Of a DNA stretch of 64,000 nucleotides, positions 8 to 55,900 are shown piece after piece. Every line of letters starts with the position of its first letter. The first letter of the stretch is position 1. Source of the DNA: Viola odorata. Its lineage: Eukaryota > Streptophyta > Magnoliopsida > Malpighiales > Violaceae. The notes beneath the pieces are model-generated. The model was given only the letters and a program-made list of their open reading frames with translations. It was not told where the DNA came from and did not search any database. The DNA lies in NCBI GenBank assembly GCA_963691705.1, contig OY829544.1, positions 193,501 to 257,500 on the forward strand. Reading direction: 5' to 3'. Both the position numbers and the translations under genes were made by a program.

Positions 8-16
8 ATTACAAAT
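8..16. repeat. Target-site duplication, left copy
   Basis: The 9-mer ATTACAAAT lies immediately outside the left TIR and is repeated exactly at 6148-6156. The bases beyond each copy differ, so the direct repeat is exactly 9 bp. Confidence 0.92.
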
Positions 17-251
17 GAGTAATGATATTTGGGAGGAATTCCCAAGAGGAATTCACAAGAGAAATGACGTGGCCACGTCATTCCGTAATTACAAGTTTGC
101 CATTGGGAGTAAATTTACCAAATTACCCCGTTTTCAAAATCCATACCCTCTCTTCCTTTCCCAATTTTTAGGGTTTATTGCTCTTCATTTGCTTCAAACG
201 GCTGCTGCTGCTCCGCTTCTTGCTTCATTTCTTTTCTTATTAAACAAATCC
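17..251 (+). repeat. MULE left terminal inverted repeat (235 bp)
   Basis: Starts GAGTAATGATATTTGGGAGG and matches the reverse complement of 5913-6147 with no length difference. I noticed one mismatch (A/G at 62). It contains the 20-bp palindrome AATGACGTGGCCACGTCATT at 63-82, with two divergent ACGT cores. Long TIRs usually carry the transposase binding site and promoter in Mutator elements. Confidence 0.93.
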
Positions 252-301
252 CCTCTCTTCCTCAGTCCGATCTAGGGTTCCTTGCAAGTTGCAATGCTCT
301 C

Positions 302-495
302 TCCTCTCCCTCCATTCGCGACCTCCCTTCCTCCCTCCTCCATTCGCGGCCTCCCTCCTCCATTCGCGATCTCCCTCCTCTCCATTCGCGGCCTCCCTCC
401 TCCATTCGCGACCTCCCTCCTCTCCATTCGCGACCTCCCTCCTCCATTCGCGGCCTCCCTCCTCTCCATTCGCGGCCTCCCCCTCCTCCATTCGC
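302..495. repeat. Subterminal minisatellite, CATTCGCG core, 9 copies
   Basis: CATTCGC cores start at 313, 341, 361, 383, 403, 425, 445, 467 and 489. After the first, longer spacing they alternate 20 and 22 bp, giving a 42-bp higher-order unit. Linkers are CT-rich (CCTCCCTCCT). A stray copy lies at 1187, inside the same element. The long ORFs here are by-products of the repeat. Confidence 0.9.
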
Positions 496-550
496 TTACA
501 TTAGCTTATGTCGCGGTGAAGATTTTGACAAAAATGGTGAGTGTGAGGTT

Positions 551-1442
551 TTGAGCTTGTGTTTTCCAGATTTGGTGCACATTTGGGTCATAGGTAAAGT
601 TGGGGACGATTTGGGATTGTTTTTCCCAGTTGTTAGTGCTAGGGATCGTGAAAGGCTGGTTAGTGAGGGTTGTACAGTTGGGTCGTTAGCTGGGGTTGTT
701 ATGATTGAGTGTCTTCTGCTCAGTCTGTGCTTGAAGTTTGGGTGTGGGATTTCAAGAGCAGAAATCCAGAAAGAGCTGTGTAGTTCTGCTGTTCTGGTGA
801 TTGAGGCCTTCCGTAGCTATCACTTTATTGGTAAGTATTGGTTCTTTTGTTTGAGCTGTTGATTGACTTGTAATGGTATGCTTAGCCTATGGCATGTTTA
901 AGCTATTGTTGTTTGTGTGTGGCTCAGATGTTGGATTTTTTGGTTAAATTTGTCTATGGCTCCAAGTCCAAAATTACTTCTTGTAATGGGCGTAATCATA
1001 TGTAAACTTGGTTTTTATAACATATTGTTTTCACGTAATTTGCTCTGGTTAGTAGATAGTGAGTAGGTCAGGTAGGTTGGTAATCTTGAATCCACCAAGT
1101 TTGATGTCATAGTCTTTTGCAATCCTTTTCTTCTTTTACTCTCAATTGTGATGTTCGTGGTTTTTGATTACTTGTTATCACTTGGCCATTCGCGGCCTCC
1201 CTTCCTGCCACTGCCTGTTGACTAGATGTGGAGTTATTTTACGCTTCTATTCTTTTATTGAGTATTGCAATATTGCTATGATGAAAATGAGGTTTGCTGA
1301 TTTTGATTTATTGTGCAGAGCTAATGCACAGCAGCCAAAGCTTGATGATTATTCTCAGTCGGTGGTGCTAGTAAAGATTGTCCTGTTTTCTGATCGCTTC
1401 CCTGTGGTATTGCAACTGACTACAAGCATCTCTCTCCCTTAA
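551..1442 (+). pseudogene. Captured gene fragment, two exon-like pieces, unidentified
   Basis: An open stretch ending at 830 reads like real protein (for example VIGKVGDDLGLFFPVVSARD, then ARDRERLVSEGCTVGSLAGV). It stops at a good donor (GTAAGT at 831). An acceptor at about 1317 (TTGTGCAG) precedes a second open stretch containing ANAQQPKLDDYSQSVVLVK. Lying inside a MULE next to another captured exon, it is best read as transduplicated host sequence. I do not recognise the parent gene. The stretch between the pieces (831-1317) looks like an intron. From about 1442 to 1735 I see nothing codable. Confidence 0.4.
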
Positions 1443-1938
1443 CTGTCATCAATTTATCTATGTGGAATATAGCTAGGATTTCTGTTATTGCTCTGCTAGT
1501 CATTAAATTGAAAGTGATTATGTGTGTTTTGATTGAGAGTGAGCCAGTTTTATTGGTTGAATTTTGTGGAAATGAATTTTGGAACTAGAATGCAACAGAA
1601 AAGAACTATTTCATAGTGATTGTTTTCGTTTCAATTAGGAGGTTTGCAGTTGTGGAAATGAGTAAGAGTGCAAGACGTGGGCTATTTTTATTTCTGAATA
1701 TCTAATTGTTTTTCCGTCTTGCTGGAGATTTGCCTGCTAATTCCCCCACCTCACTGGACTTATATCGTGCTTATGTATTTTGGCACCTGCCCTATTTATT
1801 CGTTCCGTCTTGCTGGAAATTTGGTATGTTACAACTTTAAGTTGTTGACTAATCAGATCTTCTAATTTGGTATTTGTCAATTTTCTCACGTAGTTTAAAC
1901 CGACACGAAACTTAAAAAACATATGAATCTTTTTATTT

Positions 1939-2021
1939 GGGACATAAAGTGCAAATAACTCAGGAAGACCACTAGTATAACCGTGGCCACCACACAATTT
2001 CCTACATTCCTCAACAACATC
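1939..2021 (-). pseudogene. Captured acyl-CoA oxidase exon fragment
   Basis: On the minus strand an acceptor (TTTGCAG) is followed at 2021 by codons for DVVEECRKLCGGHGY, then TSGLPELFALYVP. This matches the well-conserved GGHGY...SGLPELFAVYVP segment of plant peroxisomal acyl-CoA oxidases, closest in my memory to the long-chain ACX2 type. Similarity stops after YVP; the usual continuation is absent and about 200 bp of unrelated open frame follows. Only one exon edge is present, with no active-site region, so it cannot make an enzyme. It lies in the same orientation as the transposase and is typical transduplicated cargo of a MULE. 2030-2293 shows nothing further. Confidence 0.72.
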
Positions 2022-2293
2022 CTGCAAATGAAATATAATGCATCAAGCTAAATACCCAAAAATATTACCAACTAATCAAGAACCTGAAAGATGGGACTAG
2101 AGAAAAAGAAAATAAGTACGCTCATGAGTGCAATTTAGTGCTCAAAATAAAATGCCTAAAACAATACATAAAATGAACATCTCACTTTCTAAACAAATAT
2201 ATGTAATGTTGGAAACAAATAGGCCAGATTTTGAAAAGGACAAATAGGCCAGAATTATAAAAGGACAACATCCGCTTATGAAATCCTCTTGGC

Positions 2294-4913
2294 CTAAAAA
2301 CAACGTCGTGCTCTACTGTTACTGCAACCGGAGCATTTGAACCGTTTCATATGCTCTGCCCTAGCTGGAGTGATCTGAACACACTTCCCATGGAACCACA
2401 TCTCGCATATGTCACAGCAGATCCAGAATTCATCAGATGCATACTTATCCCCACAAGCAGCACATAACGTCTCTCCATGCTCATCCTCGTCTTCTTGAGC
2501 AACAGTTGCTGGTTCAGACGGTCCAAATACACTCTCTTGAGTTCCAAATTGAAATTCTGACTCAGAAAGATCTTTCTTGCCTTTCCTTGCTTTAACACTC
2601 TATTAGAAAAAAACATTATTGAGAAGTTAAACATCATATACATACAACTTTTAGAAAATACATTATTGAGAAGAAATAATTAACATAAAACCTTTGAGTT
2701 TTTCATACCATTTTATTTTTCATTTTCTGTTCTAGTGTTGACATTTTTCTTTTGGATGGGGGACGCCCTTTTGTTCGCACCTTCAAAGGACTCGTAAATC
2801 TTTGACAGTCTTCTGTCATGATCGTTGAAGAGGTTCCTGCGGACTGTTTTCTCCAATTAGGTGAATCATTGATCGAGAGTTTTGAAGCTGCCTCATCTAA
2901 GGAGCTCAGTAGACACTTATAATTCTCTACAGACTGAGATCCAACCTCTGCAACCTTAGCCCATTCCGAATTCAAATGATTGTATCTCACTCTACATTCA
3001 TCATCCCTGTCGTCATCATAACAATTCCTGACATATGTATGTCTGTGTCTAACATCCTTCCTCCAACGATGCAAGACATATTCAGATGGAACACGGTGTA
3101 TACCTTCCTGAATTAGCACCTTCACAATATGTCTGCAAATAATTCCTTTAAACTGAAACAGAAGGCATGAGCAGCATAAATCTGTATTCGACGGATCATA
3201 ATAAACAGAATATTTCACTTTTCTTCTCAATCCACACTCTTTGCTTTTCAACATTTCAGTTACAATAAATGTCGAAAATGAACCACACCTGTCAATTTCG
3301 TGAAAGGAATCATACAACAGTCATAATTAGCTGAAGTAAAAAGAGAAACTCTAAGAGCATAATGAAATTGATTCGCACCTGTCAATGGTGCCAATATTGA
3401 CGGACAACACACCCCGCACCTCATCCTGAAATAACCGAAACACTTCATTCGTGTAGACATCTTGAAACTGTTTCTCAAAGCTGTAATCAGTTATCAGAGG
3501 AATACAAGAATTGAACGAATCAAAATCTCCTTTCATTTCTTTCTCGATCTTACATTTCAATGCATTATCATACTGCTCTACAAACTGCTTTAAAGACGTC
3601 TTCGGACCAACATACCCATCGAAGAATGCATTCATACTTTCACTTCTTTGGGTTGTAGACATTCCGGCCCAAAAAATTCCTCTTACAAACACTGGAACCC
3701 AACGATGCCGATCTTCATATAAACCATTTAACCATGTATTTTCCTGCAGATCAAAATCATTAATCATGTTACCCCAAATCTCCTCAAATTCTGCCACCTC
3801 AATGGACTCGTAGACAACCTTTTTAAGCACTTTTTTAATTGACTTGTAATCATGACGTGATCCAAGCTTCTCAGGCAACTTCTTCATAATGTGCCATAGG
3901 CAAAGACGATGGTGAGAATTAGGGAAGACAAATTTGACAGCTTTTTGGATAGACCTGCATTGGTCAGTGATAATTGCATTTGGAGGATTTGACATGCACA
4001 TCAACCAAGCTTTAAACAACCAGATGTATGTATCCGCTTCTTCATTTGAGAGTAAACCACACCCCAATAGTACAGTCTGCCTATGGTGATTAACACCAAC
4101 AAATGGTGCAAAATGCATGTCATATCTATTAGTTAAGTACGTTGTATCAAACGATATGACATCACCAAAACTTTCATAAGCTGCTATAGATCGTGCATCT
4201 GCCCAAAATACATTTCTTAATCTACTGTCATCATCAATATCAAGCATATAGAAGAAATTAGGATTCCTTTGTTGCATCCGTGCAAAATACATGCTAAGTG
4301 ATGCTGCATCTCCAACTCCAAGCCTAATTTGTCTAACTTTCTGTAGATGATTTCTACAATCTCTCTCAGTAAATGTCAAATTCTCATACCCCCCTACTTC
4401 CACAGCCAAAGAATGAAAATTATTACTCACACGTATGCCTGCTTCATCATTTGTTTCAAGCCTCCTCTTCGCATACACATCAATGTTTTTATTACACTTA
4501 AAGAAACGTGCTTTTTTGGGACTCAACTCATGATTATGGTCAAGAATAATACGAGAAATTGTGAACACTCCTTCATCATTAATAATAGCGTTGATTTTAG
4601 CCTTACAACCAATTTTTCTTGATGGTCGTGGATTAAAAGCATTTTGGGCCTCAGATTTCCATTTACCTCCTCTACTACACTCAATAGAATAATACCTCGG
4701 CGTCCCATTATCATCTTTCTTCATACTTTTTCTCGTAATACCGAATCCCATTGCACGAGAATACTCAAGATAAAAATTGTAAACTTCTTCTTCTGAATTG
4801 AAGACCATACCTGACATCGGAATCAAACCCTCATCAGGTCCTGACATTTGACCCTCATCGCTTTGAGGTACAGACTCCCGTTGATGCTCATCATTTTGTG
4901 GGAAAAACTCCAT
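2294..4913 (-). CDS. MULE transposase, FAR1-type, with C-terminal ALFIN-like PHD finger
   Basis: Three exons on the minus strand: 4913-3379, 3288-2709 and 2599-2294 (phases agree; 806 residues). Introns are GT-AG, of 90 and 109 bp. Domains in order: FAR1 DNA-binding zinc-finger region (about 35-135, ending DHNHEL); MULE transposase core (about 250-460) with acidic residues in SFDTTY (D256) and IITDQ (D317), CLWH (C338, H341) and RSESMN; SWIM zinc finger (C550, C552, C562, H564); and, encoded by the last exon, an acidic linker and a complete C4HC3 PHD finger (C751, C754, C767, C770, H775, C778, C794, C797) reading [10 protein letters not shown] and WFHGKC, then ITPARAEH. That PHD is the ALFIN-LIKE type. 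Expected role: binds the TIRs and catalyses excision and insertion in the nucleus. A domesticated FAR1/FRS gene is the alternative, but flanking TIRs and a target duplication argue for a transposase. Domain fusion is seen in the sequence; chromatin targeting is inferred. Confidence 0.9.
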
Positions 4914-5724
4914 TACCTCCTAAAAACAACGAATTCATTAGTTGATGAAGGTTGAAAATTAAAATTGAAAGCACCAGTCCTAACATTAAGCAAAGCTAGA
5001 AAAGGAAAAAAATAAGAAAAAAATAAGTAATATCAACTTGTCACTTGTTAATTAGGCTATTTTATATTTTATCCCGTTGAATAATAATTATCCATTACGT
5101 TTTTACTATTTTAGTCTGTAGTTACTATAAAATTAATATAAGCAAGCAATCAGGTGTTTTGAATTACTATAATTCATCTTTAATAATTCCCTAAAAATCT
5201 TTATTGTTGATAATTGTTATTATCATTACTCACTATTGTTCCAATTAATTATTTCTCAACATAGCTTATATTTCATATGTTTATATACTAACAATACACT
5301 AAAAATAGAATATTGTATTAATTTAATATTAATAATATATCTGCATTTCTTAGTTTTTAATGGTAAAATAAAACATTTTCCATTTTCGGATTCTTTCATA
5401 TTTTTTTAAATATTATCATGATTTTTTATAGTTTTTAATATAAGAAATTATTTTTTAAAGCACCGTAAGATTTTCAATTACAAATTCTAACAGAGGGCCA
5501 TATCATCTAGTTGCAAATGGAGCCACTCATGACTTCCTAGACACTTTCTTTTTTTTCCATTATACTATAACTCATGTACAAAAAAAAAACTAATTCGACT
5601 AAAATATTATCCATTTTGAGATAAATAATCAAAATTTGAACCTTACTAACTATCGATTATAATTTATAATATTTATAAACCAAATTTTAATAAACTCCAA
5701 TATTTTTATTTTTATTTAAACCAC

Positions 5725-5758
<34 letters not shown>

Positions 5759-5912
5759 GGTTATATTTTCATACACATAACATTTCATTTTCAAAACTAA
5801 AATAACGGAGGAAGAGGAAGAGGAAAATTACCAAGAGGATTTGTTTAATAAGAAAAGAAATGAAGCAGCAAGAGGAGCAGAGGAAAAGAAATGAAGCAGC
5901 AAGAAGAGCAGA
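4914..5912. other. MULE interior upstream of transposase, AT-rich, no gene
   Basis: AT-rich DNA between the transposase start and the right TIR, with no credible coding sequence. It holds a short ACATAC microsatellite at about 5724-5757 and tandem copies of TIR-edge sequence at 5838-5912. By position it includes the transposase 5' leader; I could not identify a convincing TATA box. Confidence 0.6.
5724..5757. repeat. (ACATAC)n microsatellite
   Basis: About five tandem ACATAC/CATACA units, ending in an ACACAC stretch, inside the MULE upstream of the transposase. Confidence 0.85.
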
Positions 5913-6147
5913 GGATTTGTTTAATAAGAAAAGAAATGAAGCAAGAAGCGGAGCAGCAGCAGCCGTTTGAAGCAAATGAAGAGCAATAAACCCTAAAAAT
6001 TGGGAAAGGAAGAGAGGGTATGGATTTTGAAAACGGGGTAATTTGGTAAATTTACTCCCAATGGCAAACTTGTAATTACGGAATGACGTGGCCACGTCAT
6101 TCCTCTTGTGAATTCCTCTTGGGAATTCCTCCCAAATATCATTACTC
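5913..6147 (-). repeat. MULE right terminal inverted repeat (235 bp)
   Basis: Inverted copy of 17-251. The 20-bp palindrome recurs at 6082-6101. Just inside it (5838-5912), stretches of the TIR's inner edge (an ATTTGTTTAATAAG segment and an AAGAAATGAAGCAGCAAGA segment) are repeated in tandem, so this end has been extended by local duplication. It lies upstream of the transposase gene and may contain its promoter. Confidence 0.93.
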
Positions 6148-6156
6148 ATTACAAAT
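6148..6156. repeat. Target-site duplication, right copy
   Basis: Exact second copy of ATTACAAAT, directly outside the right TIR. It fixes the element boundary at 6147. Confidence 0.92.
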
Positions 6157-52923: not shown

Positions 52924-55900
52924 TCATATCCTTCCGCTGCCAGGCCAACTCCCTACACGCAGTTGAGAAGCTTGATGAAGAGATGTTTCGATTGTGTGGC
53001 TTTGGTACAATCTGTAGATATCTTTGCACTCCTCAAGGTCCGCATCGCATGTTAAAAGAACCCACTCATGATCGTCATCCAAATACTTTAAGCCAATTTG
53101 GCAGACATCATCTATCTTGAAACACTTTGCTACCTCTTGTTGCAAGTCTATGAATCCCCAGTTCGGTTGCAGGCTGAACTGTACTTTGTCTACACCAAAT
53201 GTAGCTTTCACTCTAAAGCCTCTCCTTTCTCGTGAAGCCTGGTCACTACTTCCTGGAAGAGGGGGAAGAAGAGCCTCAGGACATGGATGGTTACCAAATG
53301 TTCTGTGGCTTTGAGATCCTGGAAGAAGCTTTAGTTCTTCAACACTGTGTGCTCTCTTGAACACACCAATGCGATCATCTCCCATCAAGGCATCTCCACT
53401 GGCAGTGACATATTTTGTGGTTCGATGCTGCTTTGCTCCAGTGGAACAACATATACTTGACCCAGAGCTCCGACTACATGATGAAAATGGGGAAATTGAA
53501 GCAGGAGGGACTCCATCACTAAGTACACCATGTTGAGGGCATAATCGCCTTGAATCACCGTTCAACTTTGTCGACGAAAAAGGAACATCTCGAGAAGAGG
53601 GCAATTCTGGGAAACTTGTGCAGAACGAACCAATTTGAATGGTACTATTGGCACCTTGAACTGAATCAATCACGGGATGTAGTTTCTTTAAAGAGTGTCC
53701 AACCTTTTTAATCTTTCGAGAGGGCCAACGGTTGATGCCGTATTGCTTACATATCCTCTTAACTCTTAAGAGTAGTAGGGCACACTGCGATAAGAACAAC
53801 AAACTCCATCAGAAGAAACAAACACCACAGTCATATCCCATGTCTACGAGGACAAAATAACTGGTAAAGTGCAAGCAAATACCACAATACCAAGGGTAGT
53901 TGCATCAAGCTGAAGAACCCATTACTATGTGCTCAAACCCAGTTACTAAATTTATCTAAAGGACTTCATTTTTTTCAGCTAAATTTATACAAAGGACTAG
54001 CTTGCACATCCATGGAAGTGCTTTCAGGAAAAATAAAGAAATGATTTTATTTGTTTCCAAATCTAAATTATTTTGCCCTCCTTATCATTTGTCAATTTGA
54101 CTCTTGAGATTATCACCAGATTTTACCAAGCAGTACAGCCTTTGCAACAGCAATTATTTGCATTGTTTCAAAACAAGGCTATCCACAGTTGCACTTTGTT
54201 TTTAAGATCTCCAGCAGAATCCAAGACTGCGATGATCAAGGAAACTTTTAATTTCTTCAGCCACACGTGAATCTTAACTTCTATGCTCATTATTTACTTG
54301 GACAGAAAGTGAAATGAAAAACATGTTGTTGCAATTAAAAAAACTCCTACCACCAATACTCTTAGCAGCATCTTTGAGACTACCGGCAAAGTAGTGCCGC
54401 AGAATTTCCAAATTGATTGTCTTCTCTGTCCTGGTCCGTCTCCTCTCACCAGATCTTCTGCTCAAAGATGGCTGATGCCTGGGAAAGGAAGGGTTTCCAG
54501 CACCCTCAACATGACCACTGGTAGCATAAGTTCTCTGTAGTTTCCCAAACTGTGAATACCTGCTCATCGTGCAATTCCTCCTGAGTCATGTCCCAGTGAG
54601 TTTTAACCTTGAACTGCCCTTTAGGTTCTTCTTTTAGAATGTTCAATGGGACACAAGCATCTCTACTTTTCTGTTGAGCCTCCATCACAGACGCAATCTT
54701 GGATGAACCCTGAGGGAAAGATTCTTTTGATGAAGATGCACTTTTCTGACTTTTTTGCTCATTAAGTCCTGCATTTGAAGTAACTGCCATTTCGAAGCTG
54801 CTATCTTCCTCACACCCCTTCTCCATGGTAACATGCAAACTTCGGCAAGCCTGTTGTAGGGCAATGGGCAGTAAGTCACACATCTGTTTTTGTTTTTGAT
54901 CGGCTTGACAATCCTTTGGCAAGAATAATTCCACGACAAAATCAGTTGATCCTGCGTAGACTCTACGAAGGGGAATTGCTATGGCAGTGTGCAATCCAAA
55001 CATCATAGCACAGTGAGAAAGAGGATAATCTGTTTTGCTAAAGGCAGTTATATCCATTGAAAAACACTGTTTGTCTGTTTCAAATGTTCTCCCAACAATT
55101 CCTTGACCTAAAACAAGGCATTGCTCAGAGCATGCAGTAAAGAACTCCCAAAAGTTCTTATCAGCTACAAAGCATGCAGAATCCACAGTGGAAATACAAT
55201 GAGCATAATTCCCATCAAAATGCTGGCACCCTGCCTTCCCTCGCTCAAAACATGGGGCCCATATTAGTGCTAAAGGAAGCTGATGTGTCTTGCACAAAGA
55301 TCCCAAAATCTCTGAACTCAGGAACTGCAACTTGGGAAAAGTCTTTGAAAGCCTGAGAAGAAGGAAGCAAAATTGTGATTTCAGTATAAATCTTAAATTG
55401 GGGATACTTAGTTCAGGCATATGTAAGATGAAGTACTCTTACCTTTACACAACGAGTGGAGAAATATTGTGAACTTTGTAGATTAACAGCCTGCGCATCA
55501 ATATGATTAGACTGGTTAACTAGAATAAGAGGACAGTTCAGAGGTAGGATTAGTTATGTTATGCATTCAACTGGAAAATTGAGGAATAATGCAGAAAAAA
55601 GGAGAAAAAGGGAAAGAGAGAGGAAACCCAAGGTCATTGGCAAGATAAAGCAAGGAACTGTGTAGCAGAAAATGATGGAGGTATAAGTCATCAGTCTTTC
55701 TATGCAATACATAGTACCATCATGAACTATTATTATGGAGTGAAAGTACTTGTTCTAGAATTCATCTGTCCAGGTAGTTTCTAACTAATTCTAAGTGGAG
55801 AAAGGTTCATAGATTTCATATGCATGCATGTTGGTTAGTGATTAAAGACGAGAGCAAATATCATATATTTGATCTATGTTGCTCACACACAAAATCTGTG

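Follow-up and report, generated by a model that had tools for sequence, protein, structure and literature searches.

The stretch of DNA analysed here, a 64,000-nt window of Viola odorata contig OY829544.1 (positions 193,501 to 257,500; coordinates below are those of the window), carries a complete Mutator-like element (MULE) at 8-6156. Its transposase gene lies on the reverse strand and, as spliced by prediction, ends in a PHD finger of the kind found in plant ALFIN-LIKE proteins. The features of the element are as follows.

8-16, no strand: target site duplication (TSD), left copy (ATTACAAAT), identical to 6148-6156
17-251, forward: terminal inverted repeat (TIR), left, on the 3' side of the transposase gene
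301-495, forward: minisatellite with a unit of about 20/42 bp, just inside the left (3') TIR
497-830, forward: possible second captured gene fragment (tentative), an open frame up to a GTAAGT donor
1920-2021, reverse: captured acyl-CoA oxidase exon fragment (ACOX_C_alpha1), inner border approximate
2294-2494, reverse: exon 3, ALFIN-LIKE-type PHD finger part and stop, as placed by Pfam, 5yc3 and the ALFIN-LIKE consensus
2495-2599, reverse: exon 3, first 35 codons, resembling transposase tails in local alignment
2600-2708, reverse: intron 2, 109 nt, 79% AT, phase 0
2709-3288, reverse: transposase exon 2, with the SWIM zinc finger followed by a KGRPPSKRK tail
3289-3378, reverse: intron 1, 90 nt, GT...AG
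3379-4913, reverse: transposase exon 1, FAR1 domain and MULE DDE domain
5913-6147, reverse: TIR, right, on the 5' side of the transposase gene
6148-6156, no strand: TSD, right copy (ATTACAAAT), matching 8-16 at 9/9 bp

The two 9-bp TSD copies enclose a span of 6,131 bp. A MULE is recognized by TIRs together with a TSD of 8-11 bp, and here the left and right TIRs differ by 1 mismatch over the first 235 nt, the arms in an inverted-repeat comparison extending over 248 nt with 98% complementarity. TIRs this similar, flanked by a TSD without a single difference, point to a recent insertion unless the TIRs have been homogenised, and they speak for a MULE that is structurally complete and recently inserted. 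The right TIR is probably the promoter side of the transposase gene. Searches with the element by blastn and tblastn found no further copy in 6157-64000, and the tentative fragment at 497-830 gave no Pfam match.

The three predicted exons (4913-3379, 3288-2709 and 2599-2294, reverse strand) form one frame of 806 codons with no internal stop, exon 3 contributing 306 nt, that is, 101 codons and the stop. Pfam recognizes four domains in the protein, all above their curated cut-offs: FAR1 (residues 46-131), MULE (252-345), SWIM (540-572) and PHD (751-797). The DDE domain (PF10551, E 8.3e-34) identifies a MULE-type transposase, and the N-terminal FAR1 domain (PF03101), together with a SWIM finger (PF04434) behind the DDE domain, assigns it to the FAR1-type plant MULEs. 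In an alignment of the query with 13 relatives, D256 and D317 are kept in 14/14 rows and E425 in 13/14, and these we take to be the catalytic residues of the transposase; the SWIM residues C551, C553 and H565 are likewise present in 14/14 rows of that alignment, and C563 in 13/14. The best relatives, with 57-60% identity, are FHY3/FAR1-like proteins from, among others, Dioscorea and Rubroshorea, and the 120 listed of 2,629 homologues are FAR1/MULE proteins, from plants wherever an organism is named. Since the FAR1-MULE-SWIM order is common to FRS proteins, the gene might also be read as a domesticated FRS gene, a host transcription factor that happens to lie between unrelated repeats with no transposon involved. 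Yet long, near-identical TIRs and an exact 9-bp TSD flank the gene, and the catalytic D, D and E are intact, which makes a domesticated gene very improbable. With its open frame and young ends, the element is a candidate autonomous transposon.

Among solved structures, the nearest to the PHD finger are those of ALFIN-LIKE 3 (5yc3, E 2.8e-28), 1we9 and ALFIN-LIKE 1 (5y20), and the strength of the ALFIN-LIKE match is far beyond chance. All 8 zinc ligands of a C4HC3 PHD are kept (8/8), along with the DEFWICCD / ITPARAEH signature that, with these ligands, defines the ALFIN-LIKE type. Both had been noticed in an earlier, sequence-only reading of this DNA, and both are borne out by the structural match and by the profile check proposed for exon 3, in which the Pfam PHD match lies above cut-off. 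A host origin of the finger, also proposed earlier, is supported. When 120 ALFIN-LIKE rows are reduced to a consensus, the finger is identical to it at 47 of 59 positions. Pfam finds the Alfin domain (PF12165) neither in the 806-aa protein nor in exon 3, and the element shares only the PHD part with ALFIN-LIKE proteins. Residues Y53, W59 and W68 (exon 3 numbering) are kept and align with residues of the BPTF PHD that presumably form its methyl-lysine cage. Retention of these likely cage residues makes the finger a candidate reader of methylated H3K4. The AlphaFold model of exon 3, built from 20 alignment rows, is of low quality (mean pLDDT 50.8) and carries no weight for or against this. As to which mark might be read, the sequence-only reading took ALFIN-LIKE PHDs to bind H3K4me2/3, which does not hold uniformly, because soybean GmPHD6 reads H3K4me0/1/2 according to a passage in a review (PMC13361950).

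Exon 3 as a whole had been regarded as ALFIN-type. This stands for roughly its last two thirds, from about 2494. The first ~35 codons resemble transposase tails, to which they align, whereas they do not align to ALFIN-LIKE linkers, and for this reason the idea that the whole of exon 3 is a captured ALFIN-LIKE exon was rejected in part. The start of exon 3 was aligned locally to 69 MULE tails and to 120 ALFIN-LIKE linkers, with 200 shuffles for each comparison. For codons 10-35, the best score against the MULE tails (45, with the Carya tail P0123, GTKRSLFGPSE) was reached by 0/200 shuffles, whereas the best score against the linkers was reached by 196/200; with all 35 codons the corresponding figures were 1/200 and 165/200. 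The motif GTQ.[SN], chosen post hoc after it had been noticed, occurs in 13/75 transposase tails where the shuffle mean gives 0.2, and in 2/120 ALFIN-LIKE rows, in both near residue 4 and outside the linker. FGPSE is found in 5/120 listed homologues, all of them with Carya-type tails. The order of GTQ and FGPSE in these tails is only partly collinear with that in exon 3. Because the start of exon 3 resembles transposase tails and not ALFIN-LIKE linkers, it seems that the PHD was joined within the transposase's own last exon, the likeliest position of the join being near window 2494. A join at such a place needs no new splice site to bring the PHD into the protein, and an exon that opens with a transposase-like tail suggests that the splice from exon 2 to exon 3 is probably ancestral.

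Intron 2 has a GTATGA donor, an TTTTTCTAATAG acceptor and a T-rich 3' end, and 2599 is the only one of 7 acceptor positions tried that keeps the PHD frame. The junction of 2709 to 2599 foreseen in the sequence-only reading thus holds as a predicted splice, with donor, acceptor, phase 0 and PHD frame all in place, and so does the in-frame fusion of transposase and PHD, which is present in the sequence as a frame without stops once the predicted introns are removed. It may be, however, that transcripts stop within intron 2, or that exon 2 is spliced directly to 2021, so that the transposase seldom, if ever, includes the PHD. The exon 2 donor (ATG/GTATGA) is presumably a modest match to the consensus, and unspliced read-through of exon 2 meets a stop codon directly behind this donor (...KNKMV, then stop). 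In addition, the acyl-CoA oxidase fragment (Pfam ACOX_C_alpha1, E 1.4e-6; 28.7 bits, cut-off 27) lies behind a TTTGCAG acceptor, would continue the frame of exon 2 were exon 3 skipped, and remains open to 1737. Against a bypass of this kind stand the shortness, AT content and T-rich 3' end of intron 2, as well as the transposase-like start of exon 3 with its probably ancestral splice. We consider the bypass improbable and the gene very likely to encode the FAR1-MULE-SWIM-PHD fusion as drawn; the fused protein itself is a predicted product.

The PHD differs from the ALFIN-LIKE consensus by 12 changes, 5 of which (G7A, K35Q, I44M, Y47F and P50S) fall among the 43 positions with a conservation of 97% or more, where random placement would be expected to put 8.7 (P = 0.011). 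Neutral decay was simulated from the ALFIN-LIKE consensus to 12 changes in 20,000 runs. With mildness left aside, 2.5% of the runs kept frame, ligands and cage, and 0.16% combined the absence of a stop, the ligands and the cage with an equal mildness of change, figures that carry the serious caveat that the donor is assumed to be the consensus, from which the real donor gene may differ. Changes that the donor had acquired before capture would leave a pattern resembling constraint without any selection in the element. The changes in the PHD are nonetheless milder than simulated neutral decay predicts, and we give even odds that the finger has been kept by selection.

Host fragments at this end of the transposase are not confined to Viola. 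In two FRS6-like database gene models of Zingiber officinale, they occupy the same end as the Viola PHD: the C-terminus of P0038 matches plant UBP14 in its UBA domains (1vek E 7.9e-26; 1wiv E 5.7e-13; UBA_7 in Pfam, E 6.5e-21), and that of P0040 a piece of DXS of ~52 aa (7bzx E 6.7e-20; Pfam 1.3e-5). P0037 and P0110 also have long tails, unlike the others, and the domain search of these tails gave no Pfam name, P0110 having PF28138 in the precomputed Pfam column. It thus looks as if this end of the transposase gains host exons again and again. A transposase can scarcely profit from a piece of DXS, which means that there are in-frame host tails with no function, and the presence of other host fragments in two Zingiber relatives means that an in-frame fusion does not by itself imply one. 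The Viola PHD could accordingly be a roleless chance capture, in a fusion that is real and perhaps translated, within a clade that would tolerate almost any host-derived C-terminus. Besides the Zingiber tails, the acyl-CoA oxidase fragment held by the same element and the 5 of 12 PHD changes at nearly invariant positions are consistent with such a passenger tail; it has more difficulty in accounting for a whole domain without a stop in which 8 ligands and the cage are kept, a joint outcome that the neutral simulation puts at 0.0016, with the reservation about the donor made above. We regard a passenger tail as a distinct possibility, short of an even chance.

The reading that we prefer, at a probability of roughly 0.55, is that a FAR1-type MULE captured an ALFIN-LIKE PHD into its own last exon. 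As happens in Pack-MULEs, the element would have taken up host DNA, here with the PHD going into the last transposase exon, and the normal last splice would then yield a FAR1-MULE-SWIM-PHD transposase. It may further be that this PHD is under selection and tethers the transposase at H3K4. Such a protein would bind DNA at the element ends by its own FAR1/SWIM domains while its PHD contacted the histone H3 tail at K4, tethering it to the nucleosomes of active genes, and a longer stay at K4-marked nucleosomes might lead to more insertion or residence there. In maize, Mu insertions are commoner in H3K4me3 regions, as stated in part of one study (PMC2774946), so such chromatin would be a natural MULE target and a tether to it is plausible. 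Yet Mu, which has no known PHD, already prefers these regions, and MULEs evidently get there without such a tether; that the PHD steers insertion is doubtful. A broader account, in which the C-terminus of FAR1-type MULEs acts as a socket for host exons, selection occasionally keeps one of them and the one kept here is an H3K4 tether in cis, appears rather unlikely. While the fusion itself is real in the sequence, the targeting role of the PHD is that of a candidate.

The FAR1-MULE-SWIM-PHD order was not seen among 15 matches to region 700-806 (candidates of about 443-1410 aa), nor among the 120 listed of 2,629 or the 120 listed of 603 matches. A PHD appears in the Pfam column of 0/120 listed homologues (of 2,629), and the PHD-core pattern likewise in 0/120, figures that TE-masked proteome annotation could keep low by hiding further FAR1-MULE-PHD cases. 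The open-licence literature searched yielded no described FAR1-MULE-SWIM-PHD transposase, and a word search of the accessible part of a study of 18,744 FAR1 genes (PMC8599713) gave 0 occurrences of 'phd'. The sequence-only reading knew of no described MULE transposase with a PHD; this was too broad, since Rehavkus has one (PMC6446971, in part), but the exact order reported here is indeed absent from the listed matches.

Comparison with known systems places the element among relatives that each share some of its features. Plant FAR1-type MULEs (the Jittery group as outlined in PMC6446971) and FRS proteins have the same FAR1 N-terminus, MULE DDE domain, SWIM finger and long TIRs, but differ in that no PHD stands in the Pfam column for any of the 120 listed homologues. 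Rehavkus, from insects and annelids, has a 9-bp TSD, a PHD in its transposase and a minisatellite before the 3' TIR in the same outline (PMC6446971), and the Viola element offers a striking parallel with its own 9-bp TSD, PHD and minisatellite (301-495) at the 3' TIR. The Viola transposase is, however, FAR1-type by its matches and its PHD is ALFIN-LIKE, which sets it apart from Rehavkus as described, and the likeness looks convergent. Kaonashi and other ULP1-carrying MULEs, with VANC, are a further case of a host domain captured by plant MULEs, although there, in the portion of the source that treats them, the domain is Ulp1, the elements are non-TIR MULEs and the domain is carried by a gene of its own or by VANC instead of forming a C-terminal PHD on the transposase (PMC13317346). 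In Pack-MULEs, too, the MULE TIRs enclose fragments of host exons (PMC13317346, same portion), and Pack-TYPE elements are described as non-autonomous in an excerpt of another account (PMC8903248). The Viola element differs from Pack-MULEs in having an intact transposase frame, of which one captured fragment forms part. The PHD of RAG2 reads H3K4me3. In RAG1-RAG2 and TransibVDJ a DDE recombinase is again combined with a PHD-bearing partner (PMC4411706, in part), with the difference that there the PHD belongs to RAG2, a separate protein, whereas that of the Viola element is in cis, and that the transposase families are unrelated.

Plant DNA transposons differ in their insertion sites, and explanations of why MULEs prefer active genes still diverge. 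Where a candidate histone reader is part of the transposase itself, sister elements with and without the PHD offer a direct comparison. If the C-terminus collects host domains repeatedly, the clade also amounts to a natural experiment in new DNA-binding fusion proteins, an experiment that is relevant because FRS transcription factors arose from FAR1-type MULE transposases. Should both the socket and the tether prove true, a plant DNA transposon would have gained target choice by domain capture, with a PHD in cis that parallels the service of RAG2 to RAG1 in trans.

In two Tanacetum protein models, P0012 and P0014, one MOM1-like and the other named as a reverse transcriptase, a PHD of ALFIN-LIKE type lies at the C-terminus or close to it, which may be either capture or an artefact of the gene models. 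In the remainder of the window (22110-62176), Pfam places an amino acid transporter (22110), a Phi_1/EXORDIUM-type gene (29358), a PPR gene (48640), NLP-type GAF, RWP-RK and PB1 domains (52927-55438) and a C2H2 zinc finger (60809).
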